A stretch of DNA of 64,000 nt from Halomonas korlensis. GTDB lineage: Bacteria > Pseudomonadota > Gammaproteobacteria > Pseudomonadales > Halomonadaceae. Within the stretch, counting starts at the first letter, position 1; each line of letters starts with the position of its first letter. Shown here one piece after another: positions 30,155 to 35,064 of the stretch. Made by a program: the position numbers and the translations under genes. The notes beneath the pieces are model-generated. The model did no database searches. It worked only from the letters and a program-made list of their open reading frames with translations, and was not told where the DNA came from. The stretch is from the NCBI RefSeq assembly GCF_900116705.1, contig NZ_FPBP01000003.1, positions 124,001 through 188,000 on the forward strand, written 5' to 3'.

Positions 30155-31117
30155 TCAGTTTTGGTAAACGGTAGCTGAGTTATTGATACCGGCTTGAGTT
30201 GTCACTGCAGAGTTATTACGCCCCATTTGAACATGCTCGGCATATTGGCTGATGCGGCTAGCCTGCATTCCCGCTAATGCTCCCTGGGTAATGGAAGAGT
30301 AGTGGTTGTAGCCATTTTGATAAGAGTCGGCCATGTCACTATAGCCACTCTGTACGATCTCGGAGGTATTGTAAGAGCCCTCCTGAGTGATAAAGGCATC
30401 GTTGTTGTAGCTGCTCTGATCGACATGCGCGGTGTTATACTTGCCATCTTGATAAATGTCGGACAGGTTCTTCACGCCTTCTTGATTGACCCTGGCAACG
30501 TTGCGCATCCCATACTGCTCAACGGAAGATTCGTTATACCTTCCTTCCTGTTGGATCTTGGCAAACTGATGCTTACCGTTCTGCTCTAGATAAGAGTCAT
30601 GGTTATCCCCTTCCTGCTTGACCGAGGCACGGTGATATTTACCATTTTGATCGATCTCAGAAAAGTGATATTCCCCCTTCTGCCCGACTTCTGCGATGTT
30701 ATCCCAGCCATTCTGGAAGGTATCGGCGAAATTCTTGGTGCCTTCCTGGTTTACCGAAAGCTCATTGAAGCTACCCTGCTGGCTGCTTTCGGAACTATTT
30801 TTGTAACCATTACTGGTGATGGTGGCCGTATTAAACCAACCATCCTGTTCCACTTTGGCTTCATTAGCAATGCCATCTTGGGTAATCGAGGATGTATTGT
30901 GTCCAAACCAACCTTTCTGTAAGACGGTGGCATCATTTAAGCCCCCATCTTGTTCGATAGTAGAGGTATTGAAGCCGCCACCCCAGCCTTGTGTCAGCTG
31001 TGTCACGTCAGCGTTGTTTTCAACACCACTCTGGTCGATATCAGATAAGTTTCCATTTGCGACTGCAGTGCCTGAAAAAGCAATGGCAGCTGCAATGATC
31101 GTCATTCTAAATTTCAT
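30155..31117 (-). CDS. csgA: Major curlin subunit, expanded CsgA-like amyloid protein
   Basis: The 320-residue product starts with a Sec signal (MKFRMTIIAAAIAFSGTAVA, cleavage before NGN) after a GGAAGGGGAAG site. The rest is about 25 tandem units of 11 residues with the pattern [NH]-x-[AS]-x-[VI]-x-Q-x-G-x-x, such as NTSTIEQDGGL, NEAKVEQDGWF, NVARVNQEGVK and NSAVTTQAGIN. This is the Q/N curlin strand pattern that stacks into a beta-solenoid. E. coli CsgA is about 150 residues with five double units, so this one is roughly twice as long. Units 12-15 have His or Gln in place of the leading Asn. A secreted extracellular fibre subunit exported by CsgG. Confidence 0.85.
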   Translation of the reverse strand: MKFRMTIIAAAIAFSGTAVANGNLSDIDQSGVENNADVTQLTQGWGGGFNTSTIEQDGGLNDATVLQKGWFGHNTSSITQDGIANEAKVEQDGWFNTATITSNGYKNSSESSQQGSFNELSVNQEGTKNFADTFQNGWDNIAEVGQKGEYHFSEIDQNGKYHRASVKQEGDNHDSYLEQNGKHQFAKIQQEGRYNESSVEQYGMRNVARVNQEGVKNLSDIYQDGKYNTAHVDQSSYNNDAFITQEGSYNTSEIVQSGYSDMADSYQNGYNHYSSITQGALAGMQASRISQYAEHVQMGRNNSAVTTQAGINNSATVYQN

Positions 31118-31187: not shown

Positions 31188-31211
31188 AAAAAGTATCGAC
31201 AGATACTTTTT
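31188..31211 (-). terminator. Intercistronic terminator between csgB and csgA
   Basis: AAAAAGTATC (31188-31197) pairs with GATACTTTTT (31202-31211) around a 4-nt loop; the stem runs into TTTTTTAA on the minus strand. It lies 78 nt after the csgB stop and could terminate part of the csgB transcripts, with csgA also served by its own promoter in 31118-31187. Confidence 0.6.
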
Positions 31212-31289
31212 ACCTGCACTTTTTAACTAGCGCATTAAAAATACTTTGTCTTTCTTTTTTCTTTCTTTATGCTGCTGCTTGTCATCCGG

Positions 31290-31787
31290 TTAATGCTGGA
31301 TGACCTGGACATTGGCTCGGCCACGCGAAAACTGCGTAATCGCTACGGGAGACGCGTGAGAATTACCGAGCTGTTGAATGGAGGCTTGCCCATATATTCC
31401 ATGCTGAGTAATAGCGGCTTCCTTGCCATGGCCTCGTTGGGTAATCCCTGCCTCATGGCCACTTCCATTCTGAGTGATACTTGCCTCAAGATACCCACCC
31501 TGTTGAAGGATGTGGGCTTCGTGCTGGCTGCCACGTTGAGACGCCACGGCCAGATTTGATAGGCCGAGTTGGTTGATGCTGGTGGTATTGTATTGACCTA
31601 GCTGCACGATCAGAGCGTCATTACCATACCCGTATTGCGATATCGTACTCTGCTGACCGAAGTCGGCGGGAGTATGAGCCTGGGGCAGGAATTCTGAATG
31701 TTCAGTCAGGTCTGCTGCCATGACGATACCAGGGACGAGCAAGTAGAAGTAGATTAACTTTTTTGTAAAGCAAATTGTGTTTTTCAT
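31290..31787 (-). CDS. csgB: Minor curlin / nucleator CsgB-like protein
   Basis: From the ATG at 31787 the product is 165 residues, with a signal peptide (MKNTICFTKKLIYFYLLVPG, cleavage near IVMAA-DL). The mature part has about ten curlin units: NDALIVQLGQY, NTTSINQLGLS, HEAHILQQGGY, LEASITQNGSG, HEAGITQRGHG, KEAAITQHGIY. The last units are Arg-rich (FSRGRANVQVIQH), as the last CsgB repeat that anchors the nucleator is in E. coli. Gene order csgB then csgA matches E. coli csgBA. A GTG at 31817 gives 10 more residues but no good ribosome site or signal. Confidence 0.75.
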   Translation of the reverse strand: MKNTICFTKKLIYFYLLVPGIVMAADLTEHSEFLPQAHTPADFGQQSTISQYGYGNDALIVQLGQYNTTSINQLGLSNLAVASQRGSQHEAHILQQGGYLEASITQNGSGHEAGITQRGHGKEAAITQHGIYGQASIQQLGNSHASPVAITQFSRGRANVQVIQH

Positions 31788-32090
31788 AGTTAGCGGCTCG
31801 TGTAGTGAAATATTCACTTGGTTACAGTCTTACACATAAAGATACAAGCTGTATAAGAATTTATCGCTAATTTAAAGTGTTAAAATTTCTAAGTGCTTTT
31901 CGTTAATTGAGGATTAATTTTTTAACTATTAAATGCTATTTATTTAGTTATATTTACTTAAATCTTAAATAGAAAGATAGCCACTACTTTGTATAGCGGA
32001 TACTTAGTTAATTAGTTAAAGATAGCTAAAAGATATAAAATTTTTTTAATATTGTTAGCTTATGGACATGGTTTTAACTAATTCATATTA
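31788..32090 (-). promoter_or_regulatory. AT-rich regulatory segment upstream of csgB
   Basis: No gene is seen. By hand count 31861-32100 is about 21 percent GC, far below the window average. It holds a tandem TTAGTTAA-TTAGTTAA at 32004-32019 and TTAACTAA at 32074-32081, with variants TTAACTAT and TTAGTTAT near 31922 and 31944. The same TTAACTAA occurs upstream of csgD (35157-35164). This segment likely carries the csgB promoter and binding sites for CsgD or a nucleoid protein; the binding protein is inferred. Confidence 0.5.
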
Positions 32091-32357
32091 CTATGTAATG
32101 TAGCTGACTCTTCCCAGTTGGATTTTTGGCCCGGCAATAGCACGTATTGCGGCCACGGCGTCATCATTAAAACTCGCGCTGAGTTCTATTGTGGTAACCC
32201 CTTGATCAATAAGCTCCTTTGTCAACCGTTTAGCGGATGCTAAATCTCCGATAACGGCGACGCTGATCGCATAGGGTCCACTGCTTTGGCTGGACAGTGA
32301 TGTATTGCTGCCTCCAGGTATCAAGATCAAGAAGGCGAGGTGTTGACGAGATGTCAT
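32091..32357 (-). CDS. 88-residue KDPG-aldolase-like mini-protein in the curli cluster
   Basis: The ATG at 32357 has an AGGAG site 7 nt upstream, so it is probably translated. Residues 28-88 (AISVAVIGDLASAKRLTKEL, DQGVTTIELSASFNDDAVAA, IRAIAGPKIQLGRVSYIT) follow the first strands and helices of class I 2-keto-3-deoxy-6-phosphogluconate aldolase (Eda): a VIVVxxLxxAxxLAxALxxGG-like helix, IEL for LEVT, and the AIRAIA helix. The Eda glutamate is kept, but the Arg of LEVTLRT is absent and the barrel with the Schiff-base Lys is missing. The first 27 residues show no clear signal peptide. Function unknown; it is not similar to CsgC. It follows csgG by 100 nt. Confidence 0.55.
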   Translation of the reverse strand: MTSRQHLAFLILIPGGSNTSLSSQSSGPYAISVAVIGDLASAKRLTKELIDQGVTTIELSASFNDDAVAAIRAIAGPKIQLGRVSYIT

Positions 32358-32457
32358 CGGACACTCCTGTTGTCATACGATGAGCCAATGATCATCGGCC
32401 CTACGAAGAGAAGGCGCTGAATAGCGCCTCCTCGTTCGTACAACTGATGGCGTTGGT

Positions 32458-33294
32458 TTACAGTTTCGGGACGGGAGCATCCCGATAAGCAGTGAGTATG
32501 GGATGGCTAATATCTTCCTGGTCGGCCAGGCTCCAGAGTTGGCGATCTACGCCTTGAGTGACCAGATGAATGACCGCGGATTCGATAGCCGACATGACCG
32601 CCATCTGCACAGGCTCATTGTTTGTGTAACCCACTTCGGCTTCGAGGAGACGACTGAAGTCGATAAAGCGGTAGACGCCTGCCCGAAGTTCATGGGAGTA
32701 GATCGTCTTGCTGGTAGTAACGTTTGCCAATACCTCACCGGTCGCTATATCGACGGCACGCAGGTTAATGGATACCTGGTCGACTTGATACTGTCCGGAT
32801 GCTCCAATGCCGAAGTATTCAGCACCAGCCCCGCCGGTTCGCATATTGGAATCGTAGGCAATGATACCGCCTTCAAGGATCACCCTTGCCGCATTCAACG
32901 AGTCCAGGGCATCGCTCTGACCAACGCGTTCGAGATTGGCGCGTATGATGCGCCGCTCGGTGAGCAGATTCTGCAAGCCGACACGTTCCAGTGGTACGAA
33001 CCATCCCGAATCAGCCAGTGCCGCGCTGAGCATAGCCGCGCCCCCCTGGGTGACAGCTGTCGAGAAGGTGCTCGCCGGTGCCGGGCGATACTGTCCCGTC
33101 TGGTCGCGAAAGTCGTAAACGGCTGCAAGAATCGGGGCTCTGGGAGCCGGCAGGTTCTTCAGATCGGCATAAGTACCTGTCCTGGGCATCAGGGTTGCTG
33201 AGGTGCCGGCAAGATTATCCGCGTTGCTGACCACGCTCGCACAGCCGGAAAGGCTCAGCACGCCCGCGACGATAAGCGTCGTGACGAATTTCAT
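32458..33294 (-). CDS. csgG: Curli secretion channel lipoprotein CsgG
   Basis: CsgG forms the nonameric outer-membrane pore that exports CsgA and CsgB. The 278-residue product has a lipoprotein signal (MKFVTTLIVAGVLSLSGCAS) and family text ILAAVYDFRDQTGQYRPAP, STAVTQGGAAMLSAALADSG, WFVPLERVGLQNLLTERRII and AEYFGIGASGQYQVDQVSIN. The length matches E. coli CsgG (277). It follows csgF by 21 nt. Confidence 0.96.
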   Translation of the reverse strand: MKFVTTLIVAGVLSLSGCASVVSNADNLAGTSATLMPRTGTYADLKNLPAPRAPILAAVYDFRDQTGQYRPAPASTFSTAVTQGGAAMLSAALADSGWFVPLERVGLQNLLTERRIIRANLERVGQSDALDSLNAARVILEGGIIAYDSNMRTGGAGAEYFGIGASGQYQVDQVSINLRAVDIATGEVLANVTTSKTIYSHELRAGVYRFIDFSRLLEAEVGYTNNEPVQMAVMSAIESAVIHLVTQGVDRQLWSLADQEDISHPILTAYRDAPVPKL

Positions 33295-33315
33295 GTTGCT
33301 CTCCTTACCGGATAG

Positions 33316-33726
33316 TTAGGGCTGTAGGGCGGATTGGCCCAAGCGAATCGTGGTAACTTCACCCGTTGCCTTGTCTCTGATATCCAGGTTGAAGCCATTA
33401 CCGGTATTGTTGAGTCGGATATCGAGAGTGGCCGAATCGATAATTGCCCCCCCTTGCGCATCAGGATTATTCAACGCATCTTCGATGGCAGTATTAAGCA
33501 AGTCGGCGCGTAAATCCTGAAGAAAGAAATCGCTTTCGGAGAAGGAGCCGAAATCCGGCGCGTCAGGATCTACATTGGTGTCCTGACTTTGTGCCTTGTT
33601 TAGCAGGTAGTTCCCCGCTAGCGGATCGCCACCGAAAGAAGGATTGATGGGGCGATAGACGAGTTCTCCGGCCTGGGCTGACCCGGTCGCCAGCATCAGC
33701 GGTAAGATCAGATATCTGATTTTCAT
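33316..33726 (-). CDS. csgF: Curli assembly protein CsgF
   Basis: CsgF sits at the outer mouth of the CsgG pore and helps CsgB nucleate fibres. The 136-residue product has a signal peptide (MKIRYLILPLMLATGSAQA) and the conserved start of the mature protein, GELVYRPINPSFGGDPLAGN, which plugs the pore. Length is near E. coli CsgF (138). In the csgDEFG run, 82 nt after csgE. Confidence 0.95.
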   Translation of the reverse strand: MKIRYLILPLMLATGSAQAGELVYRPINPSFGGDPLAGNYLLNKAQSQDTNVDPDAPDFGSFSESDFFLQDLRADLLNTAIEDALNNPDAQGGAIIDSATLDIRLNNTGNGFNLDIRDKATGEVTTIRLGQSALQP

Positions 33727-33808: not shown

Positions 33809-34378
33809 TTACAGTTCTTCGTCGGCCAAGTCCTCATTCTTTTGTAATGCATCCATTACTTTGCTTTGAATGACCCTCTGCTCGACTTGCTCAATAGCGG
33901 CTTCAGCATACTGATCGACATCGCTGAGTCGAGGGGATAGCGTGGCCTCGAAGATGATCTTGCTGCCTTCCGAAATCCATATCAGGCTTCCCCAGCGCGC
34001 AGAGGGTCTTTCATGTATCGATAAGTTGGTATTACTCAAAATGCCGCTTTCCATACTGAGTTGGCTGAACTGACGATAGAAGGTTTTTCCTATCATCGTA
34101 ATGGTACGATCGACCAGTACGCCGCTCAATCCGGGCTCGTCAAGATTCAGCTGCTGAGAAAACTGCTCTTCTATGCCTTGTTCGGCATTGTCCAAGGGTT
34201 CTTGTTCTTCTTCCTGCGCTATTTCATCGAGAGCCTGTTGTTCTTCCAACCCGGCACCAGAAGCCCCTGTGGTATTAGTTCCCGGCGACGAGGGCCGCTG
34301 TGCCTGAGCAGGCTGTCCCATGAGGACCATCACCATAAGCAACAGCGAAAGGGAATTGATAGCTCTCAAGATGCTCAT
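33809..34378 (-). CDS. csgE: Curli assembly protein CsgE with an acidic N-terminal extension
   Basis: CsgE is a periplasmic adaptor that caps CsgG and delivers substrates. The C-terminal part (from about residue 75) matches it: LSGVLVDRTITMIGKTFYRQ, ARWGSLIWISEGSKIIFEAT, AIEQVEQRVIQSKVMDALQ. The product is 189 residues, against about 129 in E. coli. The extra length is an acidic, Q-rich linker (about 27-75; EEQQALDEIAQEEEQEPLDN) after the signal peptide (MSILRAINSLSLLLMVMVLM). It overlaps the csgD stop by 4 nt (ATGA). Confidence 0.9.
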   Translation of the reverse strand: MSILRAINSLSLLLMVMVLMGQPAQAQRPSSPGTNTTGASGAGLEEQQALDEIAQEEEQEPLDNAEQGIEEQFSQQLNLDEPGLSGVLVDRTITMIGKTFYRQFSQLSMESGILSNTNLSIHERPSARWGSLIWISEGSKIIFEATLSPRLSDVDQYAEAAIEQVEQRVIQSKVMDALQKNEDLADEEL

Positions 34379-35064
34379 GCTGGCCCGTCCTTACTGCGGC
34401 CCCGACTCCGGCTCAGGGGAGGCGGCGCTCCCAGGTTCTGCCGTGCCCAGTTCACTGCCTGGATGCGGTTATGGACCTTGATCTTGCGGAAAATGTTGTA
34501 GAGGTGAGATTTAACAGTGTGTTCGCTGACGAACAAGCGATCGGCGATTTCGGTATTAGAGGCCCCGGTTCCCAACATGGCGATCAGTTCCAGCTCCCGG
34601 TGGGTCAGACCACAGACGGGACGGTAGGAGTTGAGCTGTTGGCGGCGAAAGAACAGGATCATTCGCGTCATCAAGGAACGCGACATCCATAGATGGCCCT
34701 TCATGAGATTGTCGATTCCCTTGCAGATCAGGAGCAAGGAGTCGCTTCGATAGAAGATGCCCTGAAAATTGATCCCCGAAAGTATATCGGCAGCATGATC
34801 TTCGTCGCGAAGGTTGAAGGCTGCCAGCGACAGGGTCTCGTCGTCTGCTGCTTTGGTATGCCAGTGCTGTAAACTGGTTTCATCGATATGGTCGGCATCA
34901 ACCAGTATTACGGTATGCTCGGCTTCGGTGGGCTGCCATTCCATGGTCGGAGTAACGACCGTGACATCGCAGTCAAGCTGCTTATGCAAGTAGTCAGTAA
35001 ATAGCTGAGTCTGTGGATTGTTGAGTGTGACTAACAATACCAAGCCTTTATCTCGATTCATCAT
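34375..35064 (-). CDS. csgD: LuxR-family regulator CsgD
   Basis: The 229-residue product joins an N-terminal receiver-like domain (VLLVTLNNPQTQLFTDYL, TVILVDADHI) to a C-terminal LuxR helix-turn-helix (residues 152-212: LTHRELELIAMLGTGASNTE, IADRLFVSEHTVKSHLYNIF). CsgD activates curli and biofilm genes. As in E. coli CsgD the receiver lacks a full acidic phosphorylation pocket. A second ATG at 35061 is better spaced from AGGGA. It leads the minus-strand csg run and is preceded by a 403-bp spacer. Confidence 0.88.
   Translation of the reverse strand: MMNRDKGLVLLVTLNNPQTQLFTDYLHKQLDCDVTVVTPTMEWQPTEAEHTVILVDADHIDETSLQHWHTKAADDETLSLAAFNLRDEDHAADILSGINFQGIFYRSDSLLLICKGIDNLMKGHLWMSRSLMTRMILFFRRQQLNSYRPVCGLTHRELELIAMLGTGASNTEIADRLFVSEHTVKSHLYNIFRKIKVHNRIQAVNWARQNLGAPPPLSRSRGRSKDGPA

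Follow-up and report, generated by a model that had tools for sequence, protein, structure and literature searches.

The stretch of DNA analysed here, referred to below as the window, comprises 64,000 nucleotides of Halomonas korlensis (contig NZ_FPBP01000003.1) and carries a curli cluster with the minus-strand order csgD-csgE-csgF-csgG-ORF-csgB-csgA, with hemL as its neighbour at one end and rdgB and hemW at the other (NCBIfam names). The features that concern us, in the direction of reading, are:

34375..35064, minus strand: csgD (best NCBIfam match PRK10100 CsgD, E=2.7e-43, 148 bits against a cut-off of 250; GerE domain)
33809..34378, minus strand: csgE (PF10627, E=2e-27, residues 84-188 of 189)
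33316..33726, minus strand: csgF (PF10614, E=5e-23)
32458..33294, minus strand: csgG, 100 bp upstream of the ORF (PF03783, E=3e-77)
32402..32440, minus strand: hairpin of very high stability separating csgG from the ORF, a near-perfect palindrome (folding of an 81-nt stretch)
32364..32368, minus strand: Shine-Dalgarno-like AGGAG, 6 nt 5' of the ORF's ATG (direct sequence reading)
32091..32357, minus strand: the ORF, a DUF6506-family gene of 88 aa with an ATG start and a predicted small alpha/beta domain (ORF, Pfam PF20116, AlphaFold2 model)
31818..32090, minus strand: AT-rich ORF-csgB gap, the presumed csgBA promoter (sequence)
31290..31817, minus strand: csgB, with curlin repeats (PF07012, E=1.3e-17; best NCBIfam match CsgB, 62.9 bits against a cut-off of 165)
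30155..31117, minus strand: csgA by position and size, with 13 curlin-repeat stretches (PF07012, E=4.7e-39)

The NCBIfam score of the csgA product is 171.5 bits for CsgB but 88.6 for CsgA. The CsgE protein is 189 aa long with its domain confined to residues 84-188, the N-terminal extension being acidic and Gln-rich by eye.

An 88-codon ATG frame fills the interval 32091-32357 exactly, running from 32357 to 32091 on the minus strand; an in-frame stop lies shortly 5' of the ATG (the open stretch amounts to 93 codons), and the plus strand, in the frame of the interval, contains two stops. An earlier note on this DNA had described, between csgG and csgB, an 88-residue frame preceded by a good ribosome binding site, and had read it as a real gene at an unusual spot in a curli cluster; the first description is confirmed by the ATG and the AGGAG 6 nt upstream of it, and the second is borne out by a match to PF20116, by relatives and by a codon-position pattern. 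This is not a chance frame, because its product scores above the Pfam cut-off and is 56% identical over 86 residues to a relative, and the 88-aa frame is a real, intact protein gene. No other copy of the protein is found in its own genome at E<=0.001. GC content is 49% within the ORF and 39% across the entire 640-bp csgG-csgB gap.

By its profile matches, the product is a member of DUF6506 (PF20116), of a halomonad subfamily, and is nearly complete for that family. The match reaches 34.7 bits, against a gathering cut-off of 27 bits (whole-protein score), and aligns protein residues 8-86 with positions 4-83 of the 96-position profile; it is near full-length and single-domain, with the last 13 profile positions uncovered. 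All nine relatives scanned (eight halomonad and one from the Oleiphilaceae) pass the same cut-off, at 27.5-54.3 bits. An alignment of 13 halomonad proteins including the window's (A1, made from 17 good copies with near-duplicates dropped), when set against an alignment of seven more typical, independent DUF6506 proteins (A2), gave a probability of 96.6% with hhalign (E=5.7e-10, 85 columns). A1 holds 19 invariant positions, among them N18, S23 and Q24, which lie close to the second strand, and those of an IELS motif, found in 13/13 of its rows; the seven proteins of A2 all have IELC instead, with an invariant Cys, and the IELCG motif of what we label the typical Cys-bearing DUF6506 group is absent from the window protein, which reads IELS. 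Typical members (A2) also extend beyond the last strand, with YGP there in six of seven, whereas halomonad members hardly extend. As a member of its family the window gene is ordinary; what sets it apart is its place in a curli cluster, which is unusual and perhaps meaningful.

The Pfam description gives no function for DUF6506, and neither DUF6506 nor PF20116 is named in any of the open-access papers searched in full text. Among the Pfam and NCBIfam matches listed at E<=1 for the window protein there is no Csg-family profile. Two other families, Ribosomal_S11 (E=0.016) and SPOR (E=0.039), were each below the Pfam cut-off and were set aside; SPOR also matches three relatives, at best with 20.4 bits against a cut-off of 21 and over a different or partial stretch. 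A distant resemblance may lie behind these weak matches.

AlphaFold2, supplied with A1, confidently predicts a small α/β domain (pLDDT 90.4, pTM 0.80), with strands at residues 5-12, 20-26 and 29-36, a helix at 39-51, a strand at 56-59, a helix at 65-75 and a final strand at 80-83. No significant relative of solved structure was found by sequence in the PDB, with either the single sequence or the profile. The best Foldseek match, a Rab GTPase, has E=2e-3 but a TM score of 0.33 and is not credible, and the best VIA-align Z of 7.0 is at the level that the tool's own note calls common.

The earlier note had likened the last 60 residues to the opening of class I KDPG aldolase, and had offered a gene fragment, lacking by its reading the Schiff-base Lys and the rest of the barrel, as one account. 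There is a likeness to KDPG/KHG aldolase (Eda), a short strand-helix-strand at about residues 30-75: the NCBIfam eda model (TIGR01182) finds residues 30-75 with E=0.0086, and a single-sequence phmmer search of the PDB places the KDPG aldolase 1fwr as best match, with E=0.098. Against this, the eda score is 15.4 bits where the family cut-off is 156; the A1 profile, when compared by hhalign with the single sequence of the genome's own Eda, yields 1.3% probability over 29 columns, as against the 96.6% for DUF6506; and the same profile searched against the PDB does not list KDPG aldolase up to E=10. The enzyme is not among the 50 matches listed by Foldseek or the 50 by VIA-align, which says little either way. 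The predicted model, with five strands and two helices in 88 residues, has no complete (beta/alpha)8 barrel, and its strands 5-12 and 20-26 precede the aldolase-like part and are extra to an aldolase. The likeness is thus that of a common strand-helix-strand pattern, homology being unsupported by the tools used. The near full-length DUF6506 match argues in the same direction, and leaves no truncated barrel to account for; a captured piece of KDPG aldolase is hardly credible, and the ORF is very probably not such a fragment.

We turn now to selection, which the earlier note had proposed to gauge by dN/dS. Among relatives the ratio is about 0.04-0.16 in eight pairs with usable dS (NG86; three of these pairs have dS above 1.5), and the family as a whole looks to be under purifying selection. 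In the pairs that include the window copy dS is saturated (4/4), and the evidence for selection on this copy therefore comes from the codon-position pattern only: against four relatives, differences are most frequent at codon position 3, then 1, then 2 (0.63/0.42/0.27 against the copy L019). A decaying pseudogene on its way out could explain why the window copy has the longest end branch (0.78) of any of the 17 halomonad rows in the tree, and why Tajima's test of this copy against L019 is significant with two of four outgroups. Yet the frame is intact and has a good ribosome binding site, all 19 invariant positions of A1 (13 rows, the window's counted) are present, the codon positions differ in the order 3 > 1 > 2 and the predicted fold is confident, such that we consider decay very improbable. 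Branch lengths suggest a faster evolution of both curli-located copies (the second is introduced below), but the outcome of Tajima tests depends on the outgroup (at p<0.05, L028 against L027 with 3/5 outgroups, the window copy against L019 with 2/4, other tests 0/3) and we make no such claim.

CsgF is present in 107 of the 275 genomes of the bacterial family. We read the curli loci of 42 of these, namely the window, genome G149 and 40 others, and found a DUF6506 gene within the cluster in two (the window and G149) and in 0/40 of the others; the 65 CsgF genomes outside this set lack any match to the gene, genome-wide. Both CsgF and a DUF6506 gene occur in 14 genomes, of which 12 have the two apart. 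The earlier note had counted absence of the frame from relatives' curli clusters against its own reading, and absence largely prevails: the gene is missing from the 40 loci, with G149 (locus L028) as the one telling exception. In six of the 40 the csgG-csgB gap is not visible, L098 ending at csgF and five having another layout. These five (L105, L115, L116, L118 and L119) are divergent, with a CsgG about 40-45% identical to the window's; no curlin gene was found downstream of their csgG, the curlin matches being on the opposite side.

The window has 640 bp between csgG and csgB and G149 has 645 bp, compared with 115-588 bp at 34 other loci (6/41 could not be measured, one lacking csgG and five a downstream curlin gene). 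Subtracting the ORF brings both long gaps back to an ordinary size; the window's would be 373 bp, within the range of the other genomes and consistent with a clean insertion. No relic of a DUF6506 gene is discernible in the other curli gaps, where the best profile score of 6.9 bits is at chance level; nor do positions 31200-33400 hold direct repeats of >=14 bases, which is not proof against a mobile origin. Searches of a plasmid collection (with the window protein and that of L027) and of phages (with the window protein) gave no match, within the limits of such collections, which do not prove absence. The widest of the other gaps, 588 bp in locus L087 of genome G065, has no DUF6506 gene, and a repeated stretch in its translations suggests repeat elements.

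Where, then, is the gene usually found? Matches occur in 18/275 genomes of the bacterial family, counting the window's own: relatives in 16 others, and one weak and doubtful match in G223 (E=4e-4, over 46 residues inside a 238-codon frame), a genome without CsgF. Outside the family DUF6506 is rare in the sample: PF20116 is found in 3/58 relatives sampled and in 5/369 genomes drawn from the class, four above the cut-off, and the A1 profile matches 10/390 genomes drawn from the order, nine of them weakly (the own genome is counted in each of the three). Searching genome contigs with A1 retrieved 12 loci where a single-protein scan retrieved nothing; they come from Halomonas, Modicisalibacter and Cobetia, and from two MAGs, one of the Halomonadaceae and one of the Oleiphilaceae. 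In halomonads the usual home of the gene is beside a GntR/FCD regulator and a TRAP transporter. On the opposite flank, six genomes of the Cobetia genus have serine hydroxymethyltransferase (SHMT) together with an FtsX/MacB-type protein, and five genomes of genus g14 have an M14 peptidase; in G170 the gene lies between LysO-type and sulfate-permease genes. In G065, of the window's own genus, FtsX, SHMT, GntR and DctP are adjacent and the DUF6506 gene is missing. The neighbours of typical DUF6506 genes share no common partner (10 neighbour proteins at six loci, three of the proteins unmatched). Flavin or thioredoxin-fold genes adjoin typical DUF6506 genes at 3/6 loci with neighbours scanned.

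The second co-location, in Halomonas sp. McH1-25 (G149; its locus L028 is the same as L073), resembles the first in that the DUF6506 gene occupies the same gap of a curli cluster. It differs in that the gene is on the opposite strand to the window's, facing csgG, in a possible signal peptide and in its nearest relative, the non-curli copy L027, with which it groups in the tree (96/97 support). After a good ribosome binding site the L028 frame has an added N-terminal stretch, itself containing a second possible start with an RBS-like sequence, and judged by eye this stretch is a possible signal peptide. Hydropathy leaves the question undecided: averaged over the best 11-residue stretch it reaches 1.6 in L028, 1.98 in the window protein (in its conserved first strand) and 1.51 in L027, against 1.86-2.94 in CsgA, CsgE, CsgF and CsgG, and the call therefore rests on the N-terminal stretch and the RBS. 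A single-sequence model of the L028 protein was poor (pLDDT 60.2). By eye, A1 contains a few conservative residues shared only by the two curli-located copies. A tree holding the window and L028 copies as sisters was rejected (AU p=0.024, in a test that the tool warns is weakened by the long branches of both), and one holding the window copy with L019 was not (p=0.226), the exact place of the window copy being unsettled; the two curli-located copies are probably not sisters.

The surroundings of the two clusters hint at opposite directions of movement. In the window the hemL, rdgB and hemW flanks are shared with other genomes (rdgB is matched at 22/40 other curli loci), and it is therefore the gene that most likely came to a cluster standing where such clusters usually do on the chromosome. 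The 20 kb read in G149 contain none of these flanks. The cluster there is not at the hemL-rdgB site, where many halomonads have theirs: past csgA come SHMT and FtsX, and GntR with DctP is found about 50 kb from the cluster on the same contig; from these flanks the curli cluster seems, conversely, to have come to the gene's usual neighbourhood. A rough, post hoc estimate puts the chance of two such encounters at ~1e-3 (one gap in about 4,000, multiplied by a few relocations).

How the gene is expressed may depend in part on the hairpin. The 81 nt that hold it, along with a second, smaller one, fold with a minimum free energy of -39.3 kcal/mol (z -8.2 relative to shuffles), and its 26-base core, 32408-32433, matches one place in the genome with up to two mismatches allowed (on both strands, being a palindrome). 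It is not a classical terminator, since it has no T-run, and a consensus scan called no terminator there; it could attenuate transcription or, alternatively, shield the csgDEFG mRNA. Promoter calling gave no sigma-70-like site between 31700 and 32700, which says little.

Synthesising these findings, we propose a model in which a copy of the DUF6506 gene, from its usual home among GntR-type regulator and TRAP transporter genes, would in the window lineage have entered the csgG-csgB gap, where it is now probably the last gene of the csgDEFG transcript; its protein would then be made when curli are made, and may help to tune curli output through binding or sensing, in an auxiliary role. The product is probably cytoplasmic, no signal peptide being seen by inspection. 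We would put this account, taken whole, at somewhat under an even chance. It draws on the position of the gene, on the same strand as csgDEFG, 100 bp past csgG and with its own RBS, and on the second, probably non-sister co-location, at which the cluster sits in the gene's own usual neighbourhood. Counting against it are the rarity of the arrangement (two of 42 curli loci, and 12 of 14 two-gene genomes with the genes apart), the strong hairpin, which could cut transcription before the ORF, the mixed neighbours of other DUF6506 genes and a tree test made on long branches. A possible signal peptide, moreover, is seen in the L028 copy and by inspection not in the window copy, which makes a mechanism common to the two doubtful.

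In a rival account, an intact gene with a metabolic or ligand-binding role of its own, unrelated to curli, landed in the gap by chance. Most relatives do live elsewhere, among GntR, TRAP, SHMT and M14 neighbours or, in G170, LysO-type and sulfate-permease genes; the 40 other curli loci are without the gene, the hairpin separates it from csgG, and inspection shows no signal peptide in its product. What speaks against it is that the gene and the curli cluster met twice, in the same gap, apparently from opposite directions, at odds that are low but rough and post hoc. The two co-locations suggest a curli-related role, with a passenger about equally likely. A bolder reading, that DUF6506 is an unrecognised halomonad curli accessory factor joined to the cluster at least two times independently, once by the gene entering the gap and once by the cluster settling around the gene's site with the gain of an export signal, strikes us as rather unlikely.

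A false lead, that of a captured aldolase fold, is in this way replaced by a testable one, of a DUF6506 family that met the curli cluster twice within one bacterial family. Were deletion of the gene to alter curli, this would give DUF6506 its first function, as far as is known, and curli a new lineage-specific partner; were it not, the locus would stand as a case of unrelated genes settling between the secretion and subunit genes of curli.

Among known systems, csgC and csgH are comparable in being extra genes of some curli clusters. CsgC and CsgH are periplasmic; the window protein differs from them in having no csg family among its Pfam and NCBIfam matches and, by inspection, in having no signal peptide. 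Work on halomonad curli and on new curli genes does not describe the gene in the titles and abstract openings of the matches listed. Curli operons are variable, according to the excerpted text of PMC3521004, which presents csgH as an additional gene always adjoining csgA/B in many Alphaproteobacteria (PMC3521004).
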